47,946 bases of DNA, taken from Desulfobacterales bacterium HSG17 (lineage in GTDB: Bacteria; Desulfobacterota; Desulfobacteria; Desulfobacterales; Desulfococcaceae). Both the position numbers and the translations under genes were made by a program. Numbering within the stretch: position 1 is the first letter of the stretch; the number at the start of each line of letters is the position of its first letter. Shown here one piece after another: positions 499 to 24,772 of this stretch. The DNA lies in assembly GCA_030377945.1 (NCBI GenBank), contig JAUCGD010000005.1:1-47946 (forward strand). The letters run 5' to 3'. Under the pieces are notes generated by a model. That model did no database searches and had not been told where the DNA came from. It saw only the letters and a list, made by a program, of their open reading frames with translations.

Positions 499-2382
499 AT
501 GCCGCCATTGCGAACAAAAATCTTGAATGAGGGAGAGCTACCAAACAGCACAGGAGAAATTCATCCAGCATCTGAATTCAAGCAAAAGAGTCGGCCCGAA
601 TCCGATAAACAGGAGCTTCTTGAAGCTGAAATACTTCAACTTCGCCAGCAACTATCCGCTTTTTCCCAAAACCATACCAAGGAGATGAACCGCCTCCAAA
701 AAAAGTTCACGGCGGAAATTAAGGACCACGAGCAAACCACTTTTTCACTGAGGCAATCCGAGCAAACGATCCACTCCATTTTAGAGACCATTCCAGATAT
801 CATTTATCGGCTGGATGTGGATGGAAATATCACCTTTATCAGCAAGGCCATCGAAAAATTCGGTTACTCGCAAAAGGAGCTGATGGGGAAAAATATTTTT
901 GAGATCATCCATCCCGATGATTATGAAAAAGCATTTTTTAAAATCAACGAACGTCGAACCGGTGATCGCGGCACAAAATCACTGGAAGTTCGGTTGGTAG
1001 CTAAATGGGATCAGGTCATCATGTTTGACATCAGAACCGATCCAATACCGGAAACGACTCTGCTGGTTGCTGCCAACGGCCTGTATGCGTGCACGCAAAA
1101 AGGAGAAACCGCTTTTTTGGGAACCCAGGGGATTGCCCGTGACATAACTGAGCGCAAAAAACATGAACAGGAAAAACGGGACCTTGAAAAGCAGCTACGC
1201 CAGGCCCAAAAAATGGAGGCCATCGGGACTCTTGCCGGGGGGGTCGCTCATGATTTCAACAATATCATTTTTCCCATCATAGGGAATGTGGAAATGGCTT
1301 TAGATGAAATCAATGAGGGCAATATCATTTATGAGAATATGACCGAAGTGCTTAAGGCCGCCAATCGCGCCAAAGAGCTGGTTCGACAGATTTTGGCCTT
1401 TAGCCGCCAGACGGAACTGGCAAACATACCCATGAATGTCGGCCCTATCATCAAGGAAGCTTTAAAACTCCTGCGGCATTCCATCCCATCAACCATTGAG
1501 ATCAGGAAAAGAATCAATTCAATTAACGGAATGGTTGTGGCAGACCCGACACAAATCCACCAGATTGTCATGAACCTTTGCACCAATGCCTATCATGCCA
1601 TGCGCGAGAGCGGCGGCATCTTGGAAATCGTGCTGGAGGAAACCGACTTGACACCCGACAAAACGCCTGCCGGGAGTCATAATATTTCCGCAGCCAAATT
1701 ACTACGTCTGGCAATCAGTGATACCGGCATCGGTATGGCAACGGAAACAATAGAGCGGATTTTTAACCCCTATTTTTCCACCAAGGGCACTAACGAAGGT
1801 ACGGGTCTGGGATTATCCGTCGTGCATGGAATCGTTAAAAGCATCGGTGGTCAGATCATCGTTGATAGCGCACCGGGTAAGGGCTCGACTTTTCAGATTT
1901 TTTTACCCTTGATTAGCTATATCATTGAGCCGGAGGAAACATTCTTTGATGATAAGGCACCTTTTGGAAACGAAACGATTCTGCTGGTGGATGATGAGGT
2001 CCCTATCGTCCGCATGCAGAAAAAAATGCTTTCTCGACTGGGTTATACGGTGATCACACGAACCAGCAGTATTGAGGCGCTGGAAGCATTTCGAGCCAAT
2101 CATGCAAAAATTGATTTGGTACTCACAGATATGACCATGCCAAACATGACCGGGATTGAGCTTGCCATTGAACTGGGAAAGATCGATCCCGCTATCCCAA
2201 TCATTCTTTTTACAGGATTTAGCGAAGTCATGAATGCAAAACAATTATCGAGCTACGGCATCCGCGCACTCGTGAAAAAGCCGGTCATTAAAAAGGAAGT
2301 CGCCCGAATAATCCGACAAGTGCTGGATGATTCACGTTGCAGCCCTGCAACGGCGAACGGAGTTTATAATGGTGAAGGTTGA
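499..2382 (+). CDS. Cytoplasmic hybrid histidine kinase: coiled coil, PAS, HisKA, HATPase, REC
   Basis: The product is 627 residues. I chose ATG 499 because an AAGGAG site stands just upstream; an earlier in-frame ATG at 415 would place the hairpin at 419-459 inside the coding region. Order of domains: Glu/Gln-rich coiled coil (about 35-95), PAS (about 95-220, ending in the usual RDITERKK linker), dimerisation helix with phospho-acceptor His251 in [10 protein letters not shown], HATPase (N-box near [10 protein letters not shown]-boxes DTGIGM and [11 protein letters not shown]), and a C-terminal receiver (ILLVDDE, acceptor Asp in [11 protein letters not shown], Lys in VKKPV). There is no membrane segment or HPt domain. 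The gene sits between a chemoreceptor and CheY/CheR/CheA genes and shares its transmitter and receiver type with three other kinases in this window. Signal unknown. Confidence 0.92.
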
Positions 2383-2423
2383 ATTAAATAAAATATATGG
2401 AAAATCGTAATGAGGAGACAATA

Positions 2424-2831
2424 ATGAGTATGAAAAAATTGTTATGCGTAGATGACGAGGAGACTATTCGGATGTTGTTTAAACGCGTTTTTGAAAAGGA
2501 AGGGTTCAACGTCCTTATGGCGGATAGCGCAAACACGGCTGTTGGCATCCTTGAAAAAGATAACGTTCAAATTATTTTTACGGATTTAAATATGCCCGGT
2601 ACAAACGGTTTGGAGCTGGGCCGTAAAATTCGGGCGGACCGCCCCATGGCATTGATTTACGCCATGACAGGGTACTCCTCCTTATTTCAGTTGGCAGATT
2701 GCCGCGAGGCCGGATTTGATGATTATTTCATTAAGCCAATCAGCTTGGAGCTCTTGCGTCGAACCGTACATGATTCTTTCACTAAATTGGAGCGGTGGAA
2801 AAAGGGAGATGCCGACAATGCAGCCGCTTAA
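2424..2831 (+). CDS. Single-domain CheY-like response regulator
   Basis: A 135-residue stand-alone receiver. Features: LLCVDDEET (acidic pocket), phospho-acceptor Asp in FTDLNMPG, the Thr of AMTGYS, and Lys in FIKPI. ATG 2424 is preferred to the upstream in-frame ATG at 2397 because GAGGAG lies at the right distance from it. The 3' end overlaps the start of cheR by 14 bases, so the genes are probably translationally coupled. Its position between a hybrid kinase and CheR/CheA fits a phosphate acceptor for CheA or for the neighbouring hybrid kinase. There is no output domain. A broken close paralogue lies at 19757-20172 (shared ELADCREAGFD-YF-KP segment). Confidence 0.9.
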   Translation: MSMKKLLCVDDEETIRMLFKRVFEKEGFNVLMADSANTAVGILEKDNVQIIFTDLNMPGTNGLELGRKIRADRPMALIYAMTGYSSLFQLADCREAGFDDYFIKPISLELLRRTVHDSFTKLERWKKGDADNAAA

Positions 2832-3666
2832 GTTCAGCGAAAAGGAATATTCAATGTTCCGCGACCTGGTTTACAATGAATGCGGCATCAATTTGAGCAA
2901 TGATAAAAAAGAGCTTTTAAGAGCTCGTTTGGGTAAGCGCCTCCGGCAGAACGGTATGTCTGATTTCAGGCAGTATTATAAATACTTGACTGAAGAGGAC
3001 TCAGGCGATGAGCTCACTCTGATGCTGGATTGCGTATCCACGAATCTAACGCGGTTTTTCAGGGAGAAAAAACATTTTGAATTTCTTTCAAGCGATGTCT
3101 TGCCGGCGATCATAGCGGAAAGCAATGGGAGTCGAAAGCTGAATATTCGCGTGTGGAGTGCCGGTTGCTCCAGTGGCGAAGAGCCTTATTCCTTGGCGTT
3201 TTGGTTGTTATCGCAGATCGGTGATGCGTATCAGGCGGATATCAAAATTCTGGCCTCGGATATTTCCACCCGTATGCTGGATTTGGCCCAAAAGGGTGTA
3301 TATCAAGTATCCAAGACAGATCAAATTCCCTTGGCCATGCACCGGCAGTATCTTCAAAAAGGAGTCGGACAATGGGAAGGCTATTTGCGGGTCAAACCTG
3401 AAATTCGACGGTTGATCCAATTCAAGCGCGTCAATCTAATGGACGCGTTTTCCATTCCCGAGACCTTTGATTTTATCTTCTGTAGAAATGTCATGATCTA
3501 TTTCGACCGTCTTTGCCAGGAAAATTTGATCAACAAGTTTCATACGTGTTTGAAAAACGGCGGATACTTATTCGTGGGACATTCGGAGAGTCTTACCGGA
3601 CTCAAGCAGTCTTACAAATATGTTCGTCCGGCCATATATCAGAAAATAAAGGGAGGGACAGCATGA
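2818..3666 (+). CDS. cheR: Chemotaxis protein methyltransferase CheR
   Basis: The product is 282 residues, normal for CheR. The N-terminal helical domain (KFSEKEYSMFRDLVYNECGI) is followed by a SAM-dependent methyltransferase fold with the CheR motifs SAGCSSGEEPYSLA and FCRNVMIYFD and a C-terminal GHSESL. It methylates glutamates on chemoreceptors, setting adaptation. ATG 2818 is chosen because GGGAG ends 9 bases upstream; ATG 2809 directly abuts that site. The gene overlaps the response regulator at its 5' end and cheA by 4 bases (ATGA) at its 3' end. No CheB methylesterase gene is visible in the window, so adaptation must be completed by a gene upstream or elsewhere. Confidence 0.95.
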   Translation: MQPLKFSEKEYSMFRDLVYNECGINLSNDKKELLRARLGKRLRQNGMSDFRQYYKYLTEEDSGDELTLMLDCVSTNLTRFFREKKHFEFLSSDVLPAIIAESNGSRKLNIRVWSAGCSSGEEPYSLAFWLLSQIGDAYQADIKILASDISTRMLDLAQKGVYQVSKTDQIPLAMHRQYLQKGVGQWEGYLRVKPEIRRLIQFKRVNLMDAFSIPETFDFIFCRNVMIYFDRLCQENLINKFHTCLKNGGYLFVGHSESLTGLKQSYKYVRPAIYQKIKGGTA

Positions 3667-5477
3667 ACCCGGTAACAGAACCCACAGAGGCGGTGGACGC
3701 CCCCTTAGGCGATGATGATATTGAAATCATGACTGATTTTGTCATGGAATCCCTTGAGAATTTGGAAAAAATTGAAATCGGGTTGATTGATCTGGAACAA
3801 GACCCGGAGAATAAGGATACCATTAATGATATTTTCCGGCCGTTTCACACCATCAAAGGCGTTTCCGGGTTTTTGAACCTTAGTAAAATGAACCGTCTTT
3901 CCCATTGCACGGAAAATCTTTTGGACAGCGCCCGTAATGGTGAATTTGTTATTAGCGAGGAGATTACCGATGTAATTCTTGAATCCGTGGATCTGCTCAC
4001 AAAAATGATCAAACACTTGGAAGGCATCCTTATCAGCAAAAGCAATGATCTGGAAGGGGACATCGACATTGAGCCCCTGATTAAGAAGATTGAAAAGGTA
4101 TCCCAGCGGGCAATGACCGGAGAATCAAAACCGCTCGGTGAAATTCTTGTGGATTCCGGTGCCATCAAACTCGAAGACTTGCAAAAGGGGTTGGATAAGC
4201 AGCGGGAACAGCCGGGCGCGAAACTCGGTAATATTCTGATGGATGAAAAAATAGCAGAACCCAAAAAAGTTATGGCTGCCTTGCGGGACCAGAAAAAAAA
4301 CAAACGGTTCGCAGATCTTCAGGTAAAGGTGGATACCCAAAAATTAGACAACCTGATTGATTTGACCGGTGAACTGGTCATTACACAGTCCATTTTAAAA
4401 CAAAATGATCATGTACAGGCATCCCAAGACACCAAACTCAATCAAAGCATGGGGCAACTGACTAAAATCGTATCTGACCTCCAAAAAACAGCCATGTCCA
4501 TGCGCATGGTGCCGATAAAAAATACATTCCAAAAAATGGTACGGCTGGTGCGCGATTTGGCCCGAATGTCCGGGAAAAAGGTCGATCTGGATATGAGCGG
4601 GGAGGATACTGAAATTGATCGCAATGTAGTGGAACAATTGTACGAACCCCTGGTGCACATGATCCGCAATTCCGTGGATCATGGATTGGAGAAACCCGAG
4701 GATCGCCTTGCTGTCGGAAAAGACCAGATGGGCTCAATCCAGCTTAAGGCGTTTCATAAGGGCGGTAACATCGTCATTGAGATTAGCGATGACGGTAAAG
4801 GGCTTGACAAAGAACGGATTATCGAAAAAGCCCTTGCCAATAATCTCATTACAGAGGAGCAGACCCTTTCTGATCCGGAAATATTCAATCTGATTTTCCA
4901 ACCGGGATTTTCCACTGCCAAGGAAATTACTGATGTGTCCGGCCGGGGTGTGGGCATGGATGTCGTTAAAAAAGGGATCGAGAAGCTAAGAGGGCAAGTG
5001 GAAATTAAATCCACGCCGGGAAAAGGGTCTACTTTTTTCATATCACTGCCCCTGACATTGGCGATTATTGAAGGGATGGTCGTTCGGGTGGGCGATGAAC
5101 GCTATATCATACCAACCATGACGATTGTCGAGTCGGTGCGGCCCAGGGAAAAGGAGTATTATACAGTACAGGGGCAGGGTGAAATGATTAAATTCCGGGG
5201 AACCTTGATACCCATCCTGCGTCTGCACGAGCTTTTCAATGTGGCAGGTGACACGCAGATCCCTTCCAAGGGAATAGTGGTAGCGGTTGAGTATAAGAAT
5301 CAAAAACGAGGCCTTTTGCTCGACGAGCTTTTGGGAAAAGAGGAAATTGTGATCAAGAGTCTCGGTGAGACCTTCAAAAATACGAAGGGCATCGCTGGTG
5401 GCGCCATTTTGGGAGACGGCCGAATTGGATTGATACTGGACATGGAAGGCCTGTTCGATATCGCATCTGCGGCCTAG
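3663..5477 (+). CDS. cheA: Chemotaxis histidine kinase CheA with LGEIL-type repeats in place of P2
   Basis: The product is 604 residues, starting at the ATGA overlap with cheR behind an AGGGAGG site. Domains: HPt (about 20-125) with phospho-His62 in FHTIKG; a linker (about 155-212) with two copies of a short motif, LGEILVDSGAI and LGNILMDEKIAE, each followed by a helix; dimerisation helices (about 220-300); HATPase (NSVDHGLE near residue 335, GRGVGMDVV); and a CheW-like coupling domain (about 455-604). The usual P2 response-regulator docking domain is not evident. The tandem LGEIL-like units resemble the N-terminal repeats of type II/IV pilus ATPases (MshEN-like); that likeness is from memory. 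CheA phosphorylates receivers under receptor control. CheW is not in view. Confidence 0.94.
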   Translation: MNPVTEPTEAVDAPLGDDDIEIMTDFVMESLENLEKIEIGLIDLEQDPENKDTINDIFRPFHTIKGVSGFLNLSKMNRLSHCTENLLDSARNGEFVISEEITDVILESVDLLTKMIKHLEGILISKSNDLEGDIDIEPLIKKIEKVSQRAMTGESKPLGEILVDSGAIKLEDLQKGLDKQREQPGAKLGNILMDEKIAEPKKVMAALRDQKKNKRFADLQVKVDTQKLDNLIDLTGELVITQSILKQNDHVQASQDTKLNQSMGQLTKIVSDLQKTAMSMRMVPIKNTFQKMVRLVRDLARMSGKKVDLDMSGEDTEIDRNVVEQLYEPLVHMIRNSVDHGLEKPEDRLAVGKDQMGSIQLKAFHKGGNIVIEISDDGKGLDKERIIEKALANNLITEEQTLSDPEIFNLIFQPGFSTAKEITDVSGRGVGMDVVKKGIEKLRGQVEIKSTPGKGSTFFISLPLTLAIIEGMVVRVGDERYIIPTMTIVESVRPREKEYYTVQGQGEMIKFRGTLIPILRLHELFNVAGDTQIPSKGIVVAVEYKNQKRGLLLDELLGKEEIVIKSLGETFKNTKGIAGGAILGDGRIGLILDMEGLFDIASAA

Positions 5478-5522
5478 CAGATGACGTAATTGTGTAAGGA
5501 TTGATTATTGAAGAGGCATATA

Positions 5523-8500
5523 ATGCTATCTCGAAAGCACCTGATTAAGTGCCTTTTAATCCCAGTGGTGATTGCACTTGTTTTACTGGGGTCTAAAGTA
5601 ATTGCTGCCAATAGCCCAGTAAGAAGTCCCCACAGCCTTATCTCTGCCAGTGAAATTGGTTATCCGCCGTTTGCTTTGACCCGGATCGATGGCACTGCTG
5701 ACGGTTTTTCGGTAGATATGCTGAAGGCTGTTGCCAGGGCTGTCAATCTTAAGGTCAATTTCAAGGTGGCTCCGTGGTATCAAATCAAACAGGAACTGGT
5801 AGACGGGCAACTTGATGTGCTTCCCTTGGTTTCATTTTCAGAAGAGCGGGATGAAGTATATGATTTTACAGCCTCTTACTTGCGTATGCATGGCACTGCT
5901 TTTGTGCGCAGGGGAGAAAAGGAAATTTACAGTGAGGCTGATTTAAGAGACAAAGAAGTTATTGTAATGCGTGGTGATACCGCTCATGAATATGCGATAA
6001 AAAAGAACTTGTCCGACAGACTGATATTAGTCGATAATTATGAAGATGCCATGCAGTTGCTCTCAAAAGGCAGGCATGATGCGATTCTCGTTCAGCACCT
6101 CGTCGGTTTGCAGCTTATCAATAAATTGAACATTTCCAATATCGTCAGCATAAATTCATTTCATGAAACCAATCTGAAACCGGAATCAGCACCATTGGGC
6201 GGATTTGAGCAAAAGTTCTGTTTTGCCGTGCAGGAGGGTGACAAAGAACTTTTGGCAATCCTGAATGAAGGACTATCGATTGTAATTTCAGATGGAACTT
6301 ATGATAAATTGTACCATAAATGGTTTGGCCCGATTTTGCCGCAGCCCCAAGTCCCCTTAATGGTAATTGTCAGGTCATTGATCGTATTTACGATCCCCGT
6401 ATTATTCCTTTTAGCTGCTGCAGGGCTGTGGTATTTGAGGAGTGAAGTCACCCGGAACACCCAAAACCTGACGCTCGAAATTTTTGAGCGTCAGCGGGTT
6501 GAAAGGGCACTACGGGAAAAAGAAGTATTTCTGAATTCATTGCTCAATGAGATCCCGATTCCGGTTTTCTATAAAAACAGGCAAGGAAAATACCTGGGAT
6601 TCAACCGGTCCTTCGAGATCTTTTTCGGCCAGACCAAGGACCAGCTGATTGGTAAAACCATGTTTGATATTTTCCCGCCGGCGCTGGCGGATATTCTTCA
6701 CACCAAAGATGCGGAGCTATTGGAAAAAAAAGAGGACGTGCAATTCGAATCTCAGATTGAAACCGCCCAGGGAAGTGTTTGCGATACAATTATCAGCAAA
6801 GCTCTTTTTCATGACAGTCAGGGAAACGTAGGTGGAATGATCGGCACCATCCTTGACACAACCGAACGTAAGCAGATGGAAAAAACGCTTCGATTGATTG
6901 CAGAAACAGGAAATATATCCGACCAGGAATTTTTTAAATTTATGGTTCGTCATTTAGCGATCTCCCAGGATGTAAGGTATGCATTAATTGCACAGATCAA
7001 CTCGGATGACAGTTCTGTTGCTCAGACGATAGCTGTTTGGGGTAATGGTGAATTTATTGAAAATTTTCAGTATAAACTCGAGGGAACCCCTTGCTCAAAT
7101 GTACATATGAAAGGCCCCTGTTATTATTCAAACAATATTCAAAATTTATTTCCCGAGGATCACCTTTTGGTGGAAATGGAAGCAGAAAGTTATTGGGGCA
7201 TTCCATTAACGAATAATAAAAATAAAGTGTTAGGCGTTTTAGCCATTCTGGATGACAAACCCATGGATTCCTCTCCCCAATCGCAATCGATACTAAGTAG
7301 TTTTTCTATGCGGATTGCATCTGAAATCGAACGTAAGCAATCTGAAGATGCGCTCTGGGAATCAAAAGATCGATTTCAAAAGGTATTTAACAGTCATTTA
7401 GATGCAATTTTTGTTTTAAATATGGAGTATCCGTCACGGATAGTGGAATGTAATAATGCCGCCAGGGCAATTTTCGGATATGAAAACTTTGAAATCATTG
7501 GTGAATCGATAGATAAACTGCACATTGACGAAGTCTATTTTAAAGAATTTCAGGGCCAATTAAATACAAATATCGATATGGACGGATGTTTGGAGACGTT
7601 CGAATTTTCAATGAAGCGTAAGGACGGAACTATTTTCTCTTCAGAACACACTGAACTAGAATTAAATGATGATAAGGGCAACCGCCTCGGATGGGTTTCC
7701 ATAATTCGTGATCTAACCGAGAGAAAACAAACAGAGGAGCGTCTCAGGCAAGCCCAGAAAATGCAATCCATAGGCAATCTGGCCGGCGGTATCGCACATG
7801 ACTTCAACAATATTTTATTTCCGATCGTCGGTATGTCGGAGATGTTAATGGAAGACTTTCCTATTGACAGCATGGAGTATGAAAATTCCCAGGAAATTTT
7901 TAATGCGGCTACAAGGGGGAGCGAACTAGTAAAACAAATTCTTGCATTCAGCCGTCAGTCGGGACTCAAGAAAATACCGATCCGGGTTCAAACAGTATTA
8001 AAAGAAGTCCTTAAACTGAGCCGTTCAACCATTCCCACGAATATTCAAATTTTGAAGAACATTAAAAATGATTGCGGTCTGGTTTTGGCAGATCCCACCC
8101 AATTACATCAAATTATTATAAATCTAATAACGAATGCTTCTCATGCCGTGGAAGGCACCAATGGGAAAATAACCGTCAATTTGGATGAAATTGAAGTGAA
8201 CCATAACGATTCGGATGGCAATTCTTTTGATCAGGGCCAATATGTCCTGTTATCAGTTGCAGATACTGGTTGTGGGATCGATGAGGCGATTATGAACAGG
8301 ATTTTCGAGCCCTATTTTACAACCAAGAAACAAGGCAAAGGGACGGGCCTCGGACTGGCTGTTGTGTATGGAATAGTCAATGAACATGCTGGGCAAATCA
8401 AAGTTCAGAGTGAGTTGGACAAGGGGACTACGTTTAATGTTTACCTCCCCTTAATGTCTAAAATTCCTGAAATGATATCTACCCAAAAGATAAAAGCCCT

Positions 8501-8891
8501 TCAAGGCGGCACTGAGCGAATTTTGCTGGTGGATGATGAGGAACCCATTGCGCGACTTGGAAAACGAGTGCTCGAACGTCTGGGCTATAAGGTTACCGAT
8601 CGAACGAGCAGTATTGATGCCCTGGCTGCATTTAAGGCCCATTCGGGTGAGTTTGATTTGGTCATTTCCGATATGGCAATGCCCAATATGACCGGGGACC
8701 AGTTGGCCGCTAAATTGATCTCCATAAAACCAGATATTCCAGTCATCATTTGTACAGGATTCAGCAATACTATAAACTCAAAAAGGGCAATGGAGATTGG
8801 TATTAAGGGCTTTCTGATGAAACCAATGGTCAAGTCCGAGATGGTTCAAATGGTTCGAGAAGTCCTGGATGAGGCAAAAAGGGTTAGTTAA
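5523..8891 (+). CDS. Membrane hybrid histidine kinase with periplasmic SBP_bac_3 sensor, PAS, GAF, PAS, REC
   Basis: The product is 1122 residues. ATG 5523 has AAGAGG 6 bases upstream; a TTG at 5508 is an alternative. A signal/membrane helix (about 8-28) precedes a bacterial extracellular solute-binding-like family 3 domain (about 35-270; EIGYPPFA, DGFSVDMLKAVA, GQLDVLPLVSFSEER), the fold of amino-acid-binding proteins. A second membrane helix follows (about 283-307), then PAS (about 335-450), GAF-like (about 460-600), PAS (about 615-735), His759 in AGGIAHDFNN, HATPase (DTGCGID, GTGLGLAVVYG), and a receiver (ILLVDDEEPI, ISDMAMPNMTG). Periplasmic binding of an amino acid or similar small solute is the natural inference. 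The transmitter and receiver are closely similar to those of the kinases at 499, 13437 and 16709. Confidence 0.92.
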   Translation: MLSRKHLIKCLLIPVVIALVLLGSKVIAANSPVRSPHSLISASEIGYPPFALTRIDGTADGFSVDMLKAVARAVNLKVNFKVAPWYQIKQELVDGQLDVLPLVSFSEERDEVYDFTASYLRMHGTAFVRRGEKEIYSEADLRDKEVIVMRGDTAHEYAIKKNLSDRLILVDNYEDAMQLLSKGRHDAILVQHLVGLQLINKLNISNIVSINSFHETNLKPESAPLGGFEQKFCFAVQEGDKELLAILNEGLSIVISDGTYDKLYHKWFGPILPQPQVPLMVIVRSLIVFTIPVLFLLAAAGLWYLRSEVTRNTQNLTLEIFERQRVERALREKEVFLNSLLNEIPIPVFYKNRQGKYLGFNRSFEIFFGQTKDQLIGKTMFDIFPPALADILHTKDAELLEKKEDVQFESQIETAQGSVCDTIISKALFHDSQGNVGGMIGTILDTTERKQMEKTLRLIAETGNISDQEFFKFMVRHLAISQDVRYALIAQINSDDSSVAQTIAVWGNGEFIENFQYKLEGTPCSNVHMKGPCYYSNNIQNLFPEDHLLVEMEAESYWGIPLTNNKNKVLGVLAILDDKPMDSSPQSQSILSSFSMRIASEIERKQSEDALWESKDRFQKVFNSHLDAIFVLNMEYPSRIVECNNAARAIFGYENFEIIGESIDKLHIDEVYFKEFQGQLNTNIDMDGCLETFEFSMKRKDGTIFSSEHTELELNDDKGNRLGWVSIIRDLTERKQTEERLRQAQKMQSIGNLAGGIAHDFNNILFPIVGMSEMLMEDFPIDSMEYENSQEIFNAATRGSELVKQILAFSRQSGLKKIPIRVQTVLKEVLKLSRSTIPTNIQILKNIKNDCGLVLADPTQLHQIIINLITNASHAVEGTNGKITVNLDEIEVNHNDSDGNSFDQGQYVLLSVADTGCGIDEAIMNRIFEPYFTTKKQGKGTGLGLAVVYGIVNEHAGQIKVQSELDKGTTFNVYLPLMSKIPEMISTQKIKALQGGTERILLVDDEEPIARLGKRVLERLGYKVTDRTSSIDALAAFKAHSGEFDLVISDMAMPNMTGDQLAAKLISIKPDIPVIICTGFSNTINSKRAMEIGIKGFLMKPMVKSEMVQMVREVLDEAKRVS

Positions 8892-8934
8892 AAAAATGGG
8901 ATTGCGCATTTGGGATCCCATGCTTCATGTCATT

Positions 8935-8952
8935 TTGGCATAGCCTGTGCCG
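8935..8952 (+). promoter_or_regulatory. Possible sigma-54 promoter (weak)
   Basis: TTGGCATAGCCTGTGCC has GG at 8937-8938 and GC at 8949-8950 with exactly ten bases between. The -24 half is good; the -12 half is GTGC rather than TTGC. It lies 420 bases from the next start codon, so its target is unclear. Confidence 0.3.
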
Positions 8953-10947: not shown

Positions 10948-11399
10948 TGAATAAAGATGTCGTAATACTTGTGGCCGAGGATGATGAAGGCCATGCAGGA
11001 TTGATTAAAAAAAATCTTTCGCGTTCTGGAATTGTGAATGAAGTAGTTCATTTTAAGGATGGACGGGAAATATTGGACTTCCTTTATAAGCGCGGAAGCG
11101 GATTGCATCGTCAATCCGGCATCGCTTATGTGTTGCTGCTGGACATTCGCATGCCCAAAGTGGATGGGGTTCAGGTATTGAAACAGGTAAAATCGGATGC
11201 GGAATTACGAATGCTGCCGGTGATCATGATCACCACGACGGATGACCCAAGAGAGATAGAGGCCTGCCATGCCATTGGCTGCAGCAATTACATTACCAAA
11301 CCGATTGAGTATGATAATTTTGTGAATGCGATTCGTCAGCTGGGATTATTTCTTTCAGTCGTACAGGTTCCTGCCATTAATGGAGACAGCATCAGGTAA
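10944..11399 (+). CDS. Rcp1-like single-domain response regulator
   Basis: The product is 151 residues. Receiver features: VAEDDEGHAGLIKKNL, phospho-Asp in LLDIRMPKVDG, Thr in ITTTDDP, and Lys in ITKPI. The spacing and the HFKDGREILDFLYKRG segment are typical of the Rcp1 class, whose members serve as stand-alone partners of phytochrome-type kinases. It overlaps the preceding kinase by an ATGA and shares its last base with the start of the next gene (TAATG), so all three genes should be translated together. There is no DNA-binding domain; phosphate may be relayed onward to the two-receiver kinase that follows. Confidence 0.9.
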   Translation: MMNKDVVILVAEDDEGHAGLIKKNLSRSGIVNEVVHFKDGREILDFLYKRGSGLHRQSGIAYVLLLDIRMPKVDGVQVLKQVKSDAELRMLPVIMITTTDDPREIEACHAIGCSNYITKPIEYDNFVNAIRQLGLFLSVVQVPAINGDSIR

Positions 11400-13354
11400 T
11401 GAAAATGGGAACCGGGTATCCAAAAATGATCGATAAAATTATCGCAGCGAAGCGGGTGCTGGTTGTAGAAGATGATGAGGGTTTGAATAAACTGGCTCAA
11501 AAAGCCCTGCGCAGATCCGGTTTTGATGTGCAGGGGGTATCCAGCGGAACAGAGGCTATTGATTTGATTACGAGTGACACTCATCAAGTACTGCTGCTGG
11601 ACCAGCAACTCTCTGATATGACCGGCATAGAGCTAATTCATTTTTTGATTGAACATGATCGTCAGGTACCGTTTGTGGTTATGACAGGGCAAGGCGATGA
11701 GAAAATTGCCGTTGAGATGATGAAGCTGGGTGCTGCCGACTATTTGATTAAATCGTTTGATCTATCTGAAATTTTGCCCGAAGTTTTTCATCAGGTTTTT
11801 CAAAAGCTGGAAACTGAAAACCGGCTGCTAATAGCGATGGAGGCGCTTCGGATCAGTGAAATAAATTTGCGCGATGCACAGAAGATTGCCCAGCTTGGGA
11901 ATTGGACCTGGGAGCTAAAAAGCGGTAAGGTGTACTGGTCGGATGAGATTTATAATATTTTTGGTATTGAAAAAAAAATCAAACCCAATTCCGAGAAGAT
12001 TCGCAAACTAATTATTGATGAGGACTTACTGATTTTTGATGCTGCGTATAAGAAAATTGAGAGCGGAGATTTCCCTGAAAGTATCGATTATCGTATTCAC
12101 AAGAATGGGGGGCAGATCCACTATTTATCTACTAAAATAAATGCAGTGCATGATGCTGCAGGTGAATTGATTTCGTTAATTGGTACTGTTCAGGATGTCA
12201 CCAGCCTTAAAAAAATAGAAGAGCAACTTCAACAGAATCAAAAAATAGAGGCCATAGGTACTCTGGCAGGGGGGCTTGCCCATGATTTTAACAACATGCT
12301 CAGCATTATTTCCGGTAATGCCTCATATGGTTTATCACAATTAAAGCAAGGTGAGGAATTATTTGATGTTTTATTGGAAATTCAAGAAGGCACAATGCAA
12401 GCACAGGCATTGACTCAACAGCTTCTTACTTTTTCTAAAGGGGGTGCACCTGTAAAAAAATTGGCGGACATAAACCAATTGGTTAAAGAGTCCGCCCGCT
12501 TTATTACCAGGGGGGCTAAATCACGCTGTGAGTTTAATCTCGCGGAAAATCTATACGCAGCAGAGGTTGATGCCGGCCAAATCAATCAAGTCATCGGTAA
12601 TCTTGTCATCAATGCGGATCAGTCCATGCCGAATGGCGGTGTTATACGATTATGTACTGAGAATAATGAAATCCAAGATCAAAATGACTTTGCCATACCC
12701 GGGGGGCACTACATTAAAATAACCATTGAAGATCAAGGTTTAGGTATCCCGGAAAAGCATCTTGCAAATATTTTTGATCCTTTTTTTACTACCAAGCAAA
12801 TGGGCAGTGGTCTGGGACTGGCAACAGCATATTCGATCATTAAAAAACATGACGGCTGTATTTCCGCTTCTTCTGAGAGTGAAAAAGGAACTGTCTTCAC
12901 TATTTACCTGCCTGTTTCGTTAAAGTCGGTTACCCAAGCCGAGGACAAACAAGAACCCAGACACACCGGTCATGGCAAGGTCCTGATCATGGATGATCAG
13001 GAATCGATTTTAAAGATCGTTGGGAGAATGCTGAACCGCATGGGCTACGAGACCGCATTTGCAACAGATGGATTCCAAGCCGTTGATATATACCGTCAAG
13101 CTAATCAAACCAATGCCCGGTTCGATTTGGTTATTCTTGACCTTACGGTTCCGGGTGGCATGGGAGGAGCCAAAACGGTCATAGAATTGTTAAAGCTTGA
13201 CCCCAATGTAAAGGCCGTTGTTTCCAGCGGTTATTCCAATGACACCATTATGGCCGATTATGAGGATTATGGTTTTTGCGGTGTTATTCACAAGCCTTTT
13301 ACAAAGAGTCAATTGGCAGATCTATTGAACAAGATTTTAGGTGGAAAAAAATAA
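11399..13354 (+). CDS. Hybrid histidine kinase with receivers at both ends (REC-PAS-HisKA-HATPase-REC)
   Basis: The product is 651 residues and soluble. N-terminal receiver (about 15-135; VLVVEDDEG, phospho-Asp in LLLDQQLSDMTG), PAS of the PAS_3 sort (about 160-275; QLGNWTWELKSGKVYWSD), phospho-His295 in AGGLAHDFNNML, HATPase (NLVINADQSM, DQGLGIP, GSGLGLATAYS), and a C-terminal receiver (VLIMDDQESI, ILDLTVPGGMGG). The H-box continues as MLSIISG, so it does not belong to the FPI-G subgroup formed by the four other HDFNN hybrid kinases of region 1. The start overlaps the previous stop codon (TAATG). A likely role is to integrate phosphate from the upstream kinase or receiver with its own PAS signal. 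No HPt is present. Confidence 0.9.
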   Translation: MKMGTGYPKMIDKIIAAKRVLVVEDDEGLNKLAQKALRRSGFDVQGVSSGTEAIDLITSDTHQVLLLDQQLSDMTGIELIHFLIEHDRQVPFVVMTGQGDEKIAVEMMKLGAADYLIKSFDLSEILPEVFHQVFQKLETENRLLIAMEALRISEINLRDAQKIAQLGNWTWELKSGKVYWSDEIYNIFGIEKKIKPNSEKIRKLIIDEDLLIFDAAYKKIESGDFPESIDYRIHKNGGQIHYLSTKINAVHDAAGELISLIGTVQDVTSLKKIEEQLQQNQKIEAIGTLAGGLAHDFNNMLSIISGNASYGLSQLKQGEELFDVLLEIQEGTMQAQALTQQLLTFSKGGAPVKKLADINQLVKESARFITRGAKSRCEFNLAENLYAAEVDAGQINQVIGNLVINADQSMPNGGVIRLCTENNEIQDQNDFAIPGGHYIKITIEDQGLGIPEKHLANIFDPFFTTKQMGSGLGLATAYSIIKKHDGCISASSESEKGTVFTIYLPVSLKSVTQAEDKQEPRHTGHGKVLIMDDQESILKIVGRMLNRMGYETAFATDGFQAVDIYRQANQTNARFDLVILDLTVPGGMGGAKTVIELLKLDPNVKAVVSSGYSNDTIMADYEDYGFCGVIHKPFTKSQLADLLNKILGGKK

Positions 13355-13436
13355 TTTTTATCATGAACAAAATTTTAAAAAATAATTCGAGGGGTTTTGG
13401 ATGAGGGCTGATTTTATTCGTACTGAAGGATAACAA

Positions 13437-16400
13437 ATGATGATGAATACTCTTTTAAATAAAAGTATTAAATCTAAATTTTTTAGTAATATGATTATCC
13501 TCTCACTGGTTTCCATTGGACTGTGGTGTGTGATTTGGATACACGATGAATATTCCACATTCAAATCAGAGTCGGAATCGTTGCGGTTGGAATATCTTGA
13601 ATCTCAAAAGGAAGTGCTCAAGTCCGAAGTAAAAAGCGTGGTTCGATATATCAGGTATATGATGAATCAAGCCGATCAGGAAATGCAACGCACCCTTAAG
13701 GAACGTGTCTATGAGGCCCACGCAATAGCGTTAAACATATTCCAGCAAAACAAGACGTCCAAAACTCTTCCGGAAATCGGCAACATGATCAAAGATGCTT
13801 TACGGCCCATTCGATTCAATGCCGGGCGGGGATATTATTTTGCTGTTTCAATGGATGGCGTCGAGCAACTGTACCCCATAAAACCGGAATTTGAGGGGCA
13901 GAACCTGATTGATCTTAAAGACTTGAAAGGAAACTATGTAATACGGGATGAAATTGAAATCATAAAAAAATCCGGAGAAGGCTTTGTTACAGATTATTGG
14001 AGCAAACCGAATAAAGATGCGGCACTGCTTTTTCCAAAAATATCGTTTGTCAAACATTTTGCGCCGTTGGATTGGTATTTCGGAACTGGAGAATATCTTG
14101 TTGATGCTGAGATGCAAAATCAACATGAAATACTCAACCGTATTGCAGGCCTTAGATTTGGATTAGATAGCTATTTTTTTGGGAGTACATTTAGTGGAGG
14201 GTCACTTTTTTCAAACAGTAAAATTACCGTAGGTGGCAATAATATATGGGGCCTGACTGATCCCAATGGAGTAAAAATTATTCAGGAACAACGAAGGGTC
14301 GCTGAGGACCCTGAGGGCGGCTTTGTTCACTATTCCTGGCATAAATCAGATGTATTAAGTCCGTCGCCTAAAATTTCATATGTTCTAGGGGTTCCTGAAT
14401 GGGAATGGACCATAGGTGCCGGCGTTTACCTGGATACGATTGAAAATGCAATTTCAAAAAAAAGAGAAGCAATGGAAAACGGTCTTAGAACGAAAATCAT
14501 CAAAAGCATTTTTATTCTGATGCTGCTTTTAGTGCTGATTTATTTTTGGTCTAAACGTATTTCAAATCAAATGGCAAAAACCATTGAAATCTTCTCGTTA
14601 TCTTTAAAAAAGGCAAACACCGACGAAATAATGATAAACTCGAGTGATCTTCATTTACAGGAGTTTAAAATGATCGCGGAGTTGACCAACGAAATGGTGA
14701 TAGACCGCTTGCAAGTAGAGAAGGCATTGCGGGAAAGTGAAGAGAAATTTCGGGGTTTTGCCGAGCACTCACTTGTGGGTATCTATCTTATTCAAGCCGG
14801 CATCCTCAGATACGTGAATCCAAAATTTGCTGAAATCTTCGGTTACACCGTTGAAGAATGCCTTGATAATATGTCTTTTCACAACCTTGTGCATCCAGAT
14901 GATAGACCCACAGTCGAAGAACAGGTTCAAAGGAGAATATCCGGAGAAATAAAATCCGTTCAATATACTTTTAACGGGTTAAAGAATGACGGCCGCATAA
15001 TCACTGTCGAGGTTTTCGGCTCCTCCATAATTGTTGACGGTCAGTCGGCAGTCACCGGAACGCTGTTGGACATTACCCATCGTAAGCGGATGGAGGCAGA
15101 TCGAGAGCGCTTACTGACAGCCATTGAACAATCCGCGGAAACCATTATGATTACAAATAATGAAGGTGATATGCAATATGTGAATCCAGCTTTTGAGCGG
15201 AACACCGGCTATTTAAGAGAAGAGGTGATGGGAGAAAATCCGCGAATTTTGAAAAGCGACGAGCAAGATGAATTTTTTTATCAAAAAATGTGGCAGACGA
15301 TCACGGCAGGGGGGGTCTGGCACGGCAGGTTGGTCAACCGAAGAAAGGACCTCTCATTATATACAGAGGAAGCAACGATTTCACCGGTGCTTAATAGTGA
15401 GGGGGCAATTATAAATTTTGTGGCGGTTAAGCGGGACATCACCGATATGATCGCAATGGAGGAAAAATTACGTCAATCCCAAAAAATGGAAACCATCGGC
15501 ACGTTTGCAGGTGGTATTGCCCATGATTTCAACAACATCCTTTTTCCCATTGTCGGTCATACGGAAATGCTGCTGGATGATATCACTGAACAAAGCCCTT
15601 TATATGACAGCCTTGTTGAAATTATGAATGGAGCCATGAGGGCAAGAAACCTCGTGAAACAGATCGTTACATTTTCTCGCCAAAACAGGAATGAAGTCAA
15701 ACTGGTGAAGATTCAGTCGGTCATCAAGGAAGCATTAAAACTTATCCGGTCAACAATTCCGGCGACTATCAGCATAAAACAGGATTTTCAGACCCATCCA
15801 ATGATCATTAAAGCAGATCCCATCCAAATTCATCAGGTTGTGATGAACCTTGCCACCAATGCCTATCACGCCATGGAGGACACCGGCGGGATACTGGAGG
15901 TGGGTTTAGAGCAGATCGAATTGGACCAGCAAGACAGATTGAAGTCAGGGTTGAAGACAGGCATCTATGCTTGCTTAACCATCGGCGATACCGGTATCGG
16001 AATTGACAGCCAGTCAAAGGGAAGAATTTTTGATCCGTTCTTTACCACCAAAGAGCCGGGTAAAGGTACGGGTATGGGGCTTTCCGTAGTACACGGCATT
16101 GTAAAAAAAATCGGTGGCGATATTCAAGTGAACAGCGAACCGGGTAAGGGAACAGAATTTCATGTATACCTACCGATGGAAATGAGTCATGCCCTACCAA
16201 AGAATTCCAAGATATCCGATCCTATCCAGGGCGGAACTGAACGAATTTTGCTTGTGGATGATGAAAAGGCCATCGCGATTATGGAAAAGCGGATGCTCGA
16301 ACGATTGGGGTATCAGGTCGTTTCACACACAAGCAGTTTGGACGCATTAGAGACTTTCAGGGCGGATCCTTCTAAATTTGATATTGTCATTACAGATAAC

Positions 16401-16619
16401 TCAATGCCCAACTTGTCTGGTGACCAACTGGCATCTGAGTTGATTACAATCCGTGCTGATATTCCCGTGTTGCTGTGCACCGGGTTCAGTGGGAAAATTT
16501 CTGATGATAAAATTGAAGCCATGGGAATTAGGGGCTTTTTGATGAAACCTGTCGTAAGAAAGGAACTTGTTCGAAAATTGAGAGAGGTGCTGGATAACAA
16601 AGAAAGCGCCCCTCGTTAA
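13437..16619 (+). CDS. Membrane hybrid histidine kinase with double Cache sensor, PAS-PAS, REC
   Basis: The product is 1060 residues; GAAGGA lies 7 bases before ATG 13437. A membrane helix (about 15-38) is followed by two Cache_2-like periplasmic units: about 95-225 (NAGRGYYFAVSMDGVEQLYP, FAPLDWYFGTGEYL) and about 235-340 (PKISYVLGVPEWEWTIGAGVYL). This pattern is known for small organic ligands such as carboxylates. A second membrane helix (about 357-376) and a HAMP-like linker lead to two PAS domains (about 435-560 and 565-680), His696 in AGGIAHDFNN, HATPase (DTGIGID, GTGMGLSVVHG), and a receiver (ILLVDDEKAI, ITDNSMPNLSG, LMKPV). The transmitter is of the same FNNILFPI-G type as three other kinases here. 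No ligand can be assigned. Confidence 0.92.
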   Translation: MMMNTLLNKSIKSKFFSNMIILSLVSIGLWCVIWIHDEYSTFKSESESLRLEYLESQKEVLKSEVKSVVRYIRYMMNQADQEMQRTLKERVYEAHAIALNIFQQNKTSKTLPEIGNMIKDALRPIRFNAGRGYYFAVSMDGVEQLYPIKPEFEGQNLIDLKDLKGNYVIRDEIEIIKKSGEGFVTDYWSKPNKDAALLFPKISFVKHFAPLDWYFGTGEYLVDAEMQNQHEILNRIAGLRFGLDSYFFGSTFSGGSLFSNSKITVGGNNIWGLTDPNGVKIIQEQRRVAEDPEGGFVHYSWHKSDVLSPSPKISYVLGVPEWEWTIGAGVYLDTIENAISKKREAMENGLRTKIIKSIFILMLLLVLIYFWSKRISNQMAKTIEIFSLSLKKANTDEIMINSSDLHLQEFKMIAELTNEMVIDRLQVEKALRESEEKFRGFAEHSLVGIYLIQAGILRYVNPKFAEIFGYTVEECLDNMSFHNLVHPDDRPTVEEQVQRRISGEIKSVQYTFNGLKNDGRIITVEVFGSSIIVDGQSAVTGTLLDITHRKRMEADRERLLTAIEQSAETIMITNNEGDMQYVNPAFERNTGYLREEVMGENPRILKSDEQDEFFYQKMWQTITAGGVWHGRLVNRRKDLSLYTEEATISPVLNSEGAIINFVAVKRDITDMIAMEEKLRQSQKMETIGTFAGGIAHDFNNILFPIVGHTEMLLDDITEQSPLYDSLVEIMNGAMRARNLVKQIVTFSRQNRNEVKLVKIQSVIKEALKLIRSTIPATISIKQDFQTHPMIIKADPIQIHQVVMNLATNAYHAMEDTGGILEVGLEQIELDQQDRLKSGLKTGIYACLTIGDTGIGIDSQSKGRIFDPFFTTKEPGKGTGMGLSVVHGIVKKIGGDIQVNSEPGKGTEFHVYLPMEMSHALPKNSKISDPIQGGTERILLVDDEKAIAIMEKRMLERLGYQVVSHTSSLDALETFRADPSKFDIVITDNSMPNLSGDQLASELITIRADIPVLLCTGFSGKISDDKIEAMGIRGFLMKPVVRKELVRKLREVLDNKESAPR

Positions 16620-16708
16620 ACAAATTAGTTTCGCTGCCTGCAAGAGTGGATTTTAATTGAACCTTAAAATTAATCGTCCAGACTTCTTTGAGAATTGAAG
16701 GTTTTCTT

Positions 16709-19390
16709 ATGAATGCTCAAAAAATGGATGCAAACTCAACTGAGCCTATACATAGTGTCACTATAATTGTGCGCTATGCTTCATTAATAGTCATCATTTG
16801 GACGTGCCTTATTGCCGTTTCTTGTCTTTGGAGTATTCAACAACGAAAAGTAACGACAACCGCACTGATGACCAAAGAAGCGCATGCGCATTTCAACAAG
16901 GATGTCTCGATACGCCTATGGGTAACCTCGCATGGTGGAGTTTATGTTCCCACAGATGAAAGGACCCCGCCCAACCCGAATCTGAAACATTTGAGTGAAC
17001 GTGATATTTCAACCCCATCGGGCAAGAAATTAACCCTGATGAGCCCGGCGTATATGCTCCGGCAAATTATGGAGGATTACTCGAAACTCTATGGTATTAG
17101 AGGCCGTATCACCAGTCTGAAACCTTTCAGGCCTCAAAACGCCCCGGATGAATGGGAAAGGTCCGCCCTTACAGCATTTGAAAACGGAGTGGAAGAGGTG
17201 TTTGAATTTGTCGAGATCGATGGAGAACCCTACCTGCGTTTAATCCAACCCATGATAACAGAACAGGGTTGCCTGGAATGCCATGGTTATCAGGACTACA
17301 AGGTTGGCGATGTTCGAGGCGGTGTTGGGGTGTCGGTTCCCATGTCGCCTTATCTTATTCACGAGCGCAGGGAAATAAGGCAATTCGTGATAACCCATAT
17401 TTTGGTATGGTTAATCGGAATCGTCGGCATTTATTTTGGTTTTCTGGGAGTGAGGCGCTATTTTATAGAGCACAAACAGAATGAAGAACGATACAGGCAA
17501 ACAGTTGAAATCTCAATTGATGGTTTCTGGATTATTGATACAAAGGGAAAATTGCTCAGCGTAAATGCTGCTTATTGCAATATGATCGGCCATAGCCGGG
17601 ATGAGCTTTTAAACATGTCTGTTTTAGATGTTGAGGCATTGTTTTCACAAGCAGAAATAGAGCAACGCATAGAAGAAGTTATAAGGCAAGGAAGCGGTAG
17701 GTTTGAAACCAAGCATCAGCATAAAAACGGCAATATTATTGATGTAGAAATTAGTACAACCTACACAAAAGACGGTAGTGATGTATTCTTTGTATTCATT
17801 CGTGATATCACGGAGCGTAAGCTGTCGGAAAATTTACTCCTTGAGAGCGAGCAAAGGTTCAAGTCATTATTTGACAACGCACCATTGAGCTATCAATCAT
17901 TAGATGGAGAAGGCTATTTTACTGAAGTAAATGAAACCTGGTTGAATTTATTAGAATATACAAGAGAAGAGGTGATTGGTAGAAACTTTAGTGAATTACT
18001 GCACCCTGATTGGCAAGATCATTTCAAAGCTAATTTTTCAAAATTTAAAGCGGTTGGAGAAATTATGGGTGTCGAATTTGAGATGAGAAAAAAAGGCGGC
18101 TCTTATATATCGATATCGCTTCAAGGAAAAATTGGCCGTACCTCAAATGGGGAATTCAAACAAACCCATTGTGTTTTTAAAGACATCACCCAACAAAAAC
18201 AAATAGAAGAAGAAAATAAGGTTCTCGAAAAAAGACTCCAGCAATCTCAAAGGATGGAATCCATCGGCAATCTGGCCGGTGGAATTGCCCATGACTTTAA
18301 TAATATATTGTTCCCGATCATCGGATTTTCTGAAATGCTCATGGAAGATCTTCCTGAAGGCAGCATGGGGTACGAAAATGTCCAAGAAATTTTACAAGCC
18401 GGTAAAAGGGGGCGAGATATCGTAAAACAGATCCTTTCCTTCAGCCGCCAGACAGAACACGAGATGCTGCCCATTAAAGTACAGATGATTCTAAAAGAAG
18501 TCCTCAAGTTGAGCCGTTCGACAATTCCGTCTAACATCGTTATCGATCAAGATATCCAAAATGATTGCGGTCCGGTAAAGGCAGATCCTTCACAAGTGCA
18601 CCAGGTCGCCATGAACCTCATCACCAATGCTTATCATGCTGTTGAACAAACAGGCGGAAAGATATCCGTACAGCTACGGGAAATTATTTTAGCAGAGGAT
18701 GACTTTGCAGCTATCTCCCTGTCTCCAGGTAAATATGTAAGGATATCATTTGTCGACACCGGGTGCGGCATCGGCGCAGATGTGATAGACAGGGTTTTCG
18801 ACCCATATTTCACAACCAAAGCACAAGGAAAGGGAAGCGGTCTTGGACTTGCCGTGGTTTACGGAATCATCAAAGAGCATGATGGGGATATTAAAGTTTA
18901 CAGTGAGGTGGGAAAAGGTACTAATTTTACTGTATATCTACCTCTAGTGGCGAAATCCTCTCCAATTGTTTCGGCTTTCAATGTGAAACCCGATGAAACC
19001 GGCACAGAAAGGATTCTGTTGGTTGATGACGAAGTCCCTATCGCTAGACTTGAAAAACAAATGCTGGAACGACTCGGCTACCATGTGACCTTCTGTACAG
19101 CCAGCTTAGAGGCATTGGGAATTTTTAAGGGGAATCCGGATAAATTTGATTTGGTTGTTACGGACATGACAATGCCGGATATGACGGGTGATAAACTCGC
19201 CAAAGAGTTGATTTCAATCAGGCCGGATATACCGATTATCATTTGTACCGGGTTTAGTGAAATGCTAAGCGATGAAAAATCAAAGACCATTGGTATAAAA
19301 GGATTTTTAATGAAGCCGGTTGTTAAATCTGAACTGGCCCAAAAGGTCCGGAAGATCCTGGATGAGCCTAAAGGGCACCCTGGTGATTGA
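16709..19390 (+). CDS. Membrane hybrid histidine kinase with Tll0287-like c-heme sensor domain, PAS-PAS, REC
   Basis: The product is 893 residues. ATG 16709 has GAAGG 7 bases upstream; the frame is open further 5' (TTG 16688) without a better site. A membrane helix (about 22-44) precedes a periplasmic Tll0287-like (DUF3365) domain (about 45-225) with a single c-type heme motif, Cys188-Leu-Glu-Cys191-His192, in the family's usual place (EQGCLECHGY, then GDVRGGVGVSVPM). A second membrane helix (about 226-250), PAS (about 262-372), PAS (about 380-500), a coiled coil, His528 in AGGIAHDFNN, HATPase (DTGCGIG, GSGLGLAVVYG) and a receiver ([21 protein letters not shown]) follow. Redox, NO or small-gas sensing through heme is inferred. 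Its chassis matches the kinases at 499, 5523 and 13437. Confidence 0.92.
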   Translation: MNAQKMDANSTEPIHSVTIIVRYASLIVIIWTCLIAVSCLWSIQQRKVTTTALMTKEAHAHFNKDVSIRLWVTSHGGVYVPTDERTPPNPNLKHLSERDISTPSGKKLTLMSPAYMLRQIMEDYSKLYGIRGRITSLKPFRPQNAPDEWERSALTAFENGVEEVFEFVEIDGEPYLRLIQPMITEQGCLECHGYQDYKVGDVRGGVGVSVPMSPYLIHERREIRQFVITHILVWLIGIVGIYFGFLGVRRYFIEHKQNEERYRQTVEISIDGFWIIDTKGKLLSVNAAYCNMIGHSRDELLNMSVLDVEALFSQAEIEQRIEEVIRQGSGRFETKHQHKNGNIIDVEISTTYTKDGSDVFFVFIRDITERKLSENLLLESEQRFKSLFDNAPLSYQSLDGEGYFTEVNETWLNLLEYTREEVIGRNFSELLHPDWQDHFKANFSKFKAVGEIMGVEFEMRKKGGSYISISLQGKIGRTSNGEFKQTHCVFKDITQQKQIEEENKVLEKRLQQSQRMESIGNLAGGIAHDFNNILFPIIGFSEMLMEDLPEGSMGYENVQEILQAGKRGRDIVKQILSFSRQTEHEMLPIKVQMILKEVLKLSRSTIPSNIVIDQDIQNDCGPVKADPSQVHQVAMNLITNAYHAVEQTGGKISVQLREIILAEDDFAAISLSPGKYVRISFVDTGCGIGADVIDRVFDPYFTTKAQGKGSGLGLAVVYGIIKEHDGDIKVYSEVGKGTNFTVYLPLVAKSSPIVSAFNVKPDETGTERILLVDDEVPIARLEKQMLERLGYHVTFCTASLEALGIFKGNPDKFDLVVTDMTMPDMTGDKLAKELISIRPDIPIIICTGFSEMLSDEKSKTIGIKGFLMKPVVKSELAQKVRKILDEPKGHPGD

Positions 19391-24763: not shown

Positions 24764-24772
24764 GGTTTCCTT

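Follow-up and report, generated by a model that had tools for sequence, protein, structure and literature searches.

The locus described here lies on contig JAUCGD010000005.1 of Desulfobacterales bacterium HSG17, which was analysed in its entirety (47,946 bases; the window). Since the contig begins within a gene for a methyl-accepting chemotaxis protein (MCP), the gene order reads MCP, hybrid kinase HK1, stand-alone receiver RR2, CheR, CheA and hybrid kinase HK2, and behind these genes lie further kinases, including two more hybrid kinases (HK3 and HK4) with the same chassis as HK1 and HK2 (Table 1). We report the gene content of this locus, the receiver class to which RR2 belongs, the recurrent linkage of that class to che genes and to genes for HisKA proteins devoid of an ATPase (HisKA-only proteins), and the enrichment of kinases with this chassis at CheA loci.

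Genes for a che-type system are represented by CheR, CheA and the 3′ end of the MCP gene, inside which the contig starts. The latter was recognized by tblastn with MCPs of two related CheA loci (L032, 41%, E = 7e-22; L003, 44%, E = 5e-24) and with Escherichia coli Tap (39%, E = 1e-11), and its translation ends in VIPFDDDFKDF, a tail resembling those of the MCPs adjoining CheA in L032, L003 and L012. From the MCP gene to HK2, successive genes are separated by a 30-base gap, a 41-base gap, a 23-base overlap, a 4-base overlap and a 45-base gap; the six genes are probably co-transcribed as one transcript. A scan for promoters and terminators yielded no excess over shuffled sequences (45 versus 42.4; 15 versus 21.3), which leaves the limits of the operon unproven.

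Table 1. Positions of the chemosensory, kinase and receiver features in the window
Feature	Position	Strand	Basis or remark
MCP, 3′ end	1..411	+	Truncated by contig start; tblastn and translation
HK1, hybrid kinase, PAS-HisKA-HATPase-REC	442..2382	+	Pfam; possible starts 415, 421, 442, 499, 508
RR2, stand-alone receiver of discrete class	2424..2831	+	Pfam, class census, neighbourhoods; alternative start 2397
CheR methyltransferase	2809..3666	+	PF01739 (211.7 bits), PF03705
CheA (HPt, MshE-type, dimerisation, ATPase, CheW domains)	3663..5477	+	HPt 3723-4004
MshE-type (c-di-GMP receptor-like) domain in CheA	4131..4292	+	NF053729, 41.9 bits (cut-off 38)
HK2, hybrid kinase, SBP_bac_3-PAS-(weak GAF)-PAS-HisKA-HATPase-REC	5523..8891	+	Pfam
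Sensor kinase, PAS-PAS-HisKA-HATPase, HDLRTPL type	9373..10947	+	Pfam
Rcp1-like stand-alone receiver	10944..11399	+	Overlaps neighbours by 4 and 1 bases
REC-PAS-HisKA-HATPase-REC kinase, outside FPI chassis	11399..13354	+	29-35% identity to chassis
HK3, hybrid kinase, dCache_2-PAS-PAS-HisKA-HATPase-REC	13437..16619	+	Pfam
HK4, hybrid kinase, Tll0287-PAS-PAS-HisKA-HATPase-REC	16709..19390	+	Pfam
Decayed RR2-class receiver gene	19757..20157	+	Pieces in more than one frame
RR5, intact stand-alone receiver	20169..20534	+	Pfam; 28% to RR2, so outside RR2 class
Decayed PAS-HisKA-only gene	20613..21017	+	In-frame stops; HisKA part 20736-21017

Searches against Pfam showed that all four hybrid kinases consist of HisKA, HATPase_c and a C-terminal receiver domain (REC; the HisKA of HK1, at 26.3 bits, is slightly below the 26.9 cut-off), and they have the sequence AHDFNNI(I/L)FPI(I/V)G in common. 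These data bear out the initial annotation, made from the letters alone, in which the four had been described as one chassis (hereafter the FPI chassis, and its bearers FPI kinases). That annotation had further called their receivers near-identical, which was too strong, given pairwise identities of 49 to 63% for the receivers and 48 to 62% for the chassis; the receiver motif that it had ascribed to all four is found as GI(K/R)GFLMKP in HK2, HK3 and HK4, and reads GIRALVKKP in HK1. The inputs do differ, as it had stated. HK1 has a single PAS domain, HK2 an SBP_bac_3 domain (101 bits), HK3 a dCache_2 domain (293 bits) and HK4 a Tll0287-like domain (80.5 bits) with a CLECH (CxxCH-type) motif; HK2, HK3 and HK4 each have two PAS domains in addition, and the GAF domain reported for HK2 falls short of the threshold (GAF_2, 24.0 bits; cut-off 28.6). 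At E ≤ 0.001, none of the four gave a Pfam match to an HPt or a DNA-binding domain, and the two additional kinases and the Rcp1-like receiver between HK2 and HK3 are real; on both counts the annotation was right. The MCP 3′ end, the MshE-type domain within CheA and the two decayed genes after HK4 (Table 1) had escaped it. In 20 related genomes, where up to 94 of the best candidates were scored per genome, the chassis gave at least 154 matches at E ≤ 1e-110, or about 1.5 per Mb, so its four occurrences in 19 kb are far above random placement.

RR2 belongs to a sharply bounded receiver class. In the 20 genomes, 18 of which possess the class, its weakest member scored E = 4e-32 and the best non-member 4e-22, and 109 matches at E ≤ 1e-28 were found in 89 of the 389 genomes of the order. 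Neighbourhoods were compiled for 64 RR2-class rows, which hold one gene twice (cut in L138, whole in L169), and a che gene was present within 8 kb in 37 of them. By origin, this was the case for 16/16 rows from CheA-centred loci, which had been chosen for CheA, for 6/8 rows from L161 to L169, partly chosen as che-linked, and for 15/40 rows from L170 to L209, which were chosen by RR2 score among those outside CheA loci and constitute the least biased set. The gene directly upstream encodes a HisKA-only protein in 26 of the 64 rows (18/40 in the least biased set). Among solved chains, Spo0F is closest to RR2 in sequence (5.9e-17), followed by a CheY homologue (7e-15). RR2 is equally distant overall (25 to 26% identity) from the four hybrid receivers of the window, from 21 FPI receivers elsewhere and from the CheY proteins of che operons; over helix 1, the corresponding identities are 40%, 27% and 20%, a likeness that weakly favours the hybrid kinases as donors to RR2. 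The intact RR2 gene of the window adjoins a full hybrid kinase gene, that of HK1.

The HisKA-only proteins encoded upstream of RR2-class genes carry a C-terminal HisKA module and usually terminate at an IIDID-like motif, without an ATPase. They form a discrete family: 36 open reading frames (ORFs), including a fragment of 80 residues, scored at least 88 bits with the hidden Markov model built for the family, and all other matches stayed at or below 57 bits. The 24 seeds of the model had been picked by a motif containing the histidine; Cys-His was invariant in all 14 proteins aligned, some of which were not selected by that motif. In five members run through Pfam, HisKA was recognized in each (two at 25.1 and 26.5 bits, cut-off 26.9) and HATPase_c in none; the members tested gave no Pfam match to HPTransfase and were assigned to PF00512 (HisKA). 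At the N-terminus they carry a PAS, REC or Tll0287 domain. By script, 35 of the 36 ORFs end within 16 residues of the module; for L170 the stretch reported stops early, and the sequence itself ends like the others. The relatives' proteins combine a conserved histidine with the lack of a catalytic ATPase domain, as do kinase-derived histidine phosphotransferases of the PhyT, Spo0B and ChpT kind, and are plausible candidates for the phosphotransferase that the hybrid kinases do not contain. The family extends beyond RR2, since one REC-HisKA-only protein had relatives in all 20 genomes searched (E ≤ 1e-20), many of them matching REC only or HisKA only.

Copies of both partners, each of them decayed, follow HK4 in the window. 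Matches lying wholly inside 19740-20166 were obtained with 66/66 RR2-class queries and with 0/40 CheY queries, and RR2 itself aligns to this copy in pieces of 50% and 65% identity. The decayed HisKA-only gene was matched by all 24 HisKA-only queries, and its HisKA part is the best match of the window to the family model (60.8 bits, E = 6e-18; HK1 to HK4, 34 to 45 bits). It has PAS-like sequence ahead of the HisKA part, and in Pfam its HisKA match stayed just under the threshold (26.0 bits against 26.9) while HATPase was absent. The intact receiver gene RR5 stands between the two remnants. An ORF on the minus strand (20616-21029) was rejected as spurious, having no Pfam family and overlapping the decayed HisKA-only gene. 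Elsewhere, a Tll0287 sensor, the sensor type of HK4, is fused to the ATPase-less scaffold in a gene located between CheA and an RR2-class receiver (L190:4968-6068). A second, more distant HisKA-only subtype with a CHEFAQP box and a REC N-terminus was seen at CheA-centred loci of genomes G351 and G320 (L139:16877-17587 and L133:3768-4466).

CheA of the window contains phosphotransfer, dimerisation, ATPase and CheW domains (PF01627, PF02895, PF02518 and PF01584), and His62 of its HPt domain was invariant in an alignment of 50 sequences. The MshE-type domain sits between the HPt and dimerisation domains, at the place of P2, and NF053729 also scored above its cut-off of 38 in 4/4 CheA homologues tested. 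With the family profile, PilF (6f8l) was matched at E = 3.6e-15, and PilB more weakly. When the 24-residue MshE motifs were read by eye against a relaxed motif, the first repeat fitted and the second had Lys in place of Gly/Ala/Ser, a Lys that is also present in 13/13 homologues compared. Judged by this domain, CheA may be tuned by cyclic di-GMP (c-di-GMP). With 604 residues, the protein is without the N-terminal extension (at least 100 residues) typical of most homologues listed, the majority of 120 being about 720 to 760 residues long; P0002, encoded on a contig of 2,060 bases, apparently is without it too. CheA is already included among the domains associated with MshEN (PMC5013675), the same pairing as in the window, and the portion of that paper available does not name the family described here. 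In a survey of CheA architectures (PMC10782961), 'MshE' and 'c-di-GMP' are absent from the main text.

To place the cluster among its relatives, 111 of 120 CheA loci (L001-L051 and L101-L160; L052-L060 left out) were read by script, of which 104 are distinct. As a rule, the order in them is CheW-MCP-CheA-CheD-HDOD-CheY-CheX-CheB, and CheR is frequently present as well. In L118, L121, L130 and L139 the operon continues with a HisKA-only or full kinase, an RR2-class receiver, CheR and an FPI kinase; L129, L133 and L140 are extended likewise, with no FPI kinase seen after CheR. Chassis matches of at least 372 bits numbered 13 in 60 CheA loci (1.02 Mb; matches in 12 loci; seven of the 60 duplicate loci of another CheA set) versus about 1.5 expected, an approximately nine-fold enrichment. 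The expectation was derived from the 154 matches in the 20 genomes over 106.6 Mb, and is unchanged when the listed genome sizes (about 105.2 Mb in sum) are used. The associated P value of 6e-9 is indicative only, because the genomes that supplied the density were partly picked for RR2 or kinases near CheA and the loci are not independent.

A comparable array is present on contig 8 of G239 (L166), where the order is CheD-HDOD-CheY-CheX-CheB-CheR-FPI kinase-FPI kinase-PAS-HisKA-only-RR2-FPI kinase-kinase-kinase-REC-HisKA-only, and in the next stretch fetched (L211) an FPI kinase is accompanied by a kinase whose sensor is of the HK2 type (59%). HK2-type sensors were likewise found in FPI kinases near CheA in G350 and G364 (60% and 61%; centres 4.3 and 7.3 kb from CheA). 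Sensors of this type number 20 across the order, spread over 18 of 389 genomes, and only a minority of them are thus linked to che genes. Tll0287 as a che-specific input found no support: such sensors are common, with 75 of the 389 genomes having one (E ≤ 1e-38), and mostly located elsewhere, and among the loci read they are known to be CheA-linked only in L032 and L190. In a further locus (L210:7799-13383), an HK2-type kinase with a solute-binding sensor is followed by an HK4-type Tll0287 kinase, and no che gene was found in the 19 kb fetched around the pair.

The reading that we favour, while giving it somewhat less than an even chance, is that accessory kinases act on a dedicated receiver of the chemosensory system. 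That this che cluster and its kinases are functionally linked to chemosensing is plausible, and recurrence in relatives lends the idea partial support. The cluster MCP-HK1-RR2-CheR-CheA-HK2 would be loaded with separately recruited hybrid kinases of one chassis, with further kinases behind it, and each hybrid kinase would respond to its own cue through a cytoplasmic PAS domain, a periplasmic solute-binding domain, a double Cache domain or a Tll0287 haem-type domain. Each would autophosphorylate and pass the phosphate to its own receiver. From that receiver, or straight from the kinase histidine, the phosphate would reach RR2, with the HisKA-only protein that relatives encode just upstream of RR2 as the likely phosphotransfer step. 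Phosphorylated RR2 would then modulate the chemosensory output, acting together with MCP-CheA signalling or in opposition to it. Co-transcription, the route taken by the phosphate, the role of RR2 as point of convergence and its influence on the output are inferred; in the simplest reading, hybrid kinases of this locus or from beyond it would act on RR2, directly or by way of a HisKA-only protein, and RR2 would feed the chemosensory system. A more far-reaching proposal would have an RR2-class receiver and a minimal, ATPase-less HisKA phosphotransferase with exchangeable N-terminal domains (PAS, REC or Tll0287) form a relay module of the Desulfobacterales, wired into clusters with an MshE-domain CheA, through which a large pool of same-chassis kinases with swappable sensors bias chemotaxis; the window would then be a locus at which decay has overtaken one copy of the module. 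We regard this proposal as rather doubtful.

That a relay with several inputs could feed an output of the chemosensory type had already been suggested in the initial annotation. This idea gains from the MCP gene at the start of the cluster, the che genes near RR2-class members, the enrichment of FPI kinases and the array of G239, and loses from L032, the closest CheA locus among those fetched (66%), where MCP-CheR-CheA are accompanied by a complete set of che genes but not by HK1 or RR2. Two other contigs of the L032 genome do carry RR2-class genes, in one case with a different CheA and a CheB no more than 8 kb away. Several further observations weigh against accessory kinases acting through RR2. 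FPI kinases are present in 15 of the 104 distinct CheA loci, all within L101-L160 (15/53); L001-L051, a number of them with short flanks, gave 0/51. The arrangement is therefore restricted to part of the family. In 27 of the 64 RR2-class rows, some on short contigs, there is no che gene within 8 kb. The sole HisKA-only copy seen in the window is decayed, and none of the five best sensor relatives of HK4 lies at a CheA locus identified here. No separate CheW was found in the window; with relatives' proteins as tblastn queries, CheD and CheX had no match in it and CheB gave receiver matches only, and these three genes may lie off the contig.

Alternatively, the neighbourhood may be incidental: in a signalling-rich genome with many hybrid kinases, some would lie beside che genes by chance and signal elsewhere through distant partners. 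The genome of relative G001 has at least 60 matches to HK4 at E ≤ 1e-60 (best 150 of 410 candidates), and this number, the absence of the module from L032, the kinase pair of L210 with no che gene found nearby and the 481 bases that separate HK2 from the next gene (9373) all speak for this explanation. It is at odds with the number of chassis kinases near CheA, with the recurrence of RR2-class and HisKA-only genes in che clusters and with the tight packing from HK1 to HK2, and we consider it rather unlikely. It is also conceivable that RR2 is the plain CheY of this CheA and that the hybrid kinases serve separate pathways. RR2 adjoins CheR and CheA, CheY queries produced matches of the generic receiver kind only in the window, and an RR2-class gene directly follows CheA in L136, L167, L195 and L202. 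Nevertheless, a CheY (45 to 54% identity to that of L032) and an RR2-class receiver coexist in clusters such as L118, L121, L130 and L166, helix 1 of RR2 is unlike that of CheY, and in 26 of the 64 rows the gene upstream of the RR2-class member is a HisKA-only one. Identity of RR2 with CheY appears distinctly improbable.

As to the origin of the array, the four kinases were compared with 238 kinases from outside the window that had been selected for their likeness to HK4 and HK1. Outside kinases scoring above the best relative within the window numbered 132 for HK1, 73 for HK2, 30 for HK3 and 111 for HK4. In a tree of 58 chassis, in which kinases from CheA-fetched loci are over-represented, HK1 to HK4 did not form one clade, and forcing them into one cost 222.7 log units (p-AU, approximately unbiased test, 2.3e-37). 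HK2 and HK4 are inside one larger group of 26 rows, where HK4 is nearer P0122 and P0123, and HK3 groups (support 99) with four kinases from CheA-fetched loci of G239, G387 and G362. Because HK4 and HK1 alone had guided the choice of the outside set, the nearest kin of HK2 and HK3 may be missing from it; this does not rescue monophyly. An origin of the four kinases by local duplication and later exchange of sensors, the expansion of one chassis that the initial annotation had envisaged, can therefore be dismissed, with the sampling used, as extremely improbable: the H-box continuation and domain order are the same in all four, yet the single clade is rejected, which is the outcome that the annotation had itself named as refuting; the closest relatives of each kinase are outside the window, and HDFNN continues as ILFPI or LLFPI in 127 of the 238 outside kinases. 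The tree indicates instead that the array is assembled from separately recruited lineages of a very large family.

Known phosphorelays offer partial parallels. In the Kin-Spo0F-Spo0B relay of Bacillus subtilis, a shared phosphotransferase derives from the phosphoacceptor domain of a kinase. Spo0B and ChpT of Caulobacter both retain a degenerate ATPase-like domain, and we know of no che linkage of either relay. ChpT is likewise a shared phosphotransferase of that derivation (PMC3433190). In the Pak-SdrG-PhyT-PhyR system of Sphingomonas, signals from several sensor kinases come together at a single-domain receiver and at a kinase-derived phosphotransferase whose ATPase does not work (PMC5898713). 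PhyT retains the degenerate ATPase and has the HRxxN motif of HWE/HisKA_2 kinases, whereas the candidate described here is of the HisKA type and ends after the phosphoacceptor module; the output there is a stress response, and the one proposed here is chemosensory. Archaeal REC-PAS/GAF-HisKA proteins such as AF_1472 (PMC5847659, PMC1183210) have no HATPase and in some cases carry a REC domain, like the HisKA-only family. According to PMC5847659 they have not been studied experimentally, and neither a dedicated receiver class nor che linkage is mentioned in the available text of these sources.

The Che3 system of Rhodospirillum centenum is a che-type counterpart, combining a hybrid kinase and a stand-alone receiver as HK1, HK2 and RR2 are combined beside CheR and CheA. 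There, the hybrid kinase CheS3 rather than CheA3 phosphorylates CheY3, and CheA acts on the receiver of the hybrid kinase (PMC3868531). That system has one hybrid kinase with an N-terminal REC, whereas the window has four with C-terminal RECs and varied sensors; it belongs to another phylum, its report, in the part available, describes no HisKA-only partner, and phosphate flow was demonstrated there and is proposed here. The ways in which chemosensory arrays exchange signals with two-component kinases have been established in few cases (PMC3868531, Discussion). In the titles and abstracts of the open-licence literature, we found no description of the RR2 class with a HisKA-only partner or of its che linkage. 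If the kinases do act on the CheA pathway through RR2, new chemotaxis senses could be gained by adding kinases of the same chassis and not new receptors. The recurrent pair of a HisKA-only protein and an RR2-class receiver provides a defined candidate for the phosphate step missing from hybrid kinases without HPt, one that can be tested with purified proteins.

The overlapping genes at 9373-13354 (kinase, Rcp1-like receiver and REC-PAS-kinase-REC) have the look of a separate cassette of the phytochrome style, and the solved chains matching the receiver include RcpB (1k66) and Rcp1 (1i3c). Further downstream, at 23375-30623, there are two sigma-54-dependent response regulators, each adjoining a sensor kinase (24773-26380 on the minus strand, with a receiver of its own, and 27474-29216 on the plus strand). 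At 22360-23217, an AraC-type helix-turn-helix is fused to a 6-O-methylguanine DNA methyltransferase, as in Ada-like proteins.

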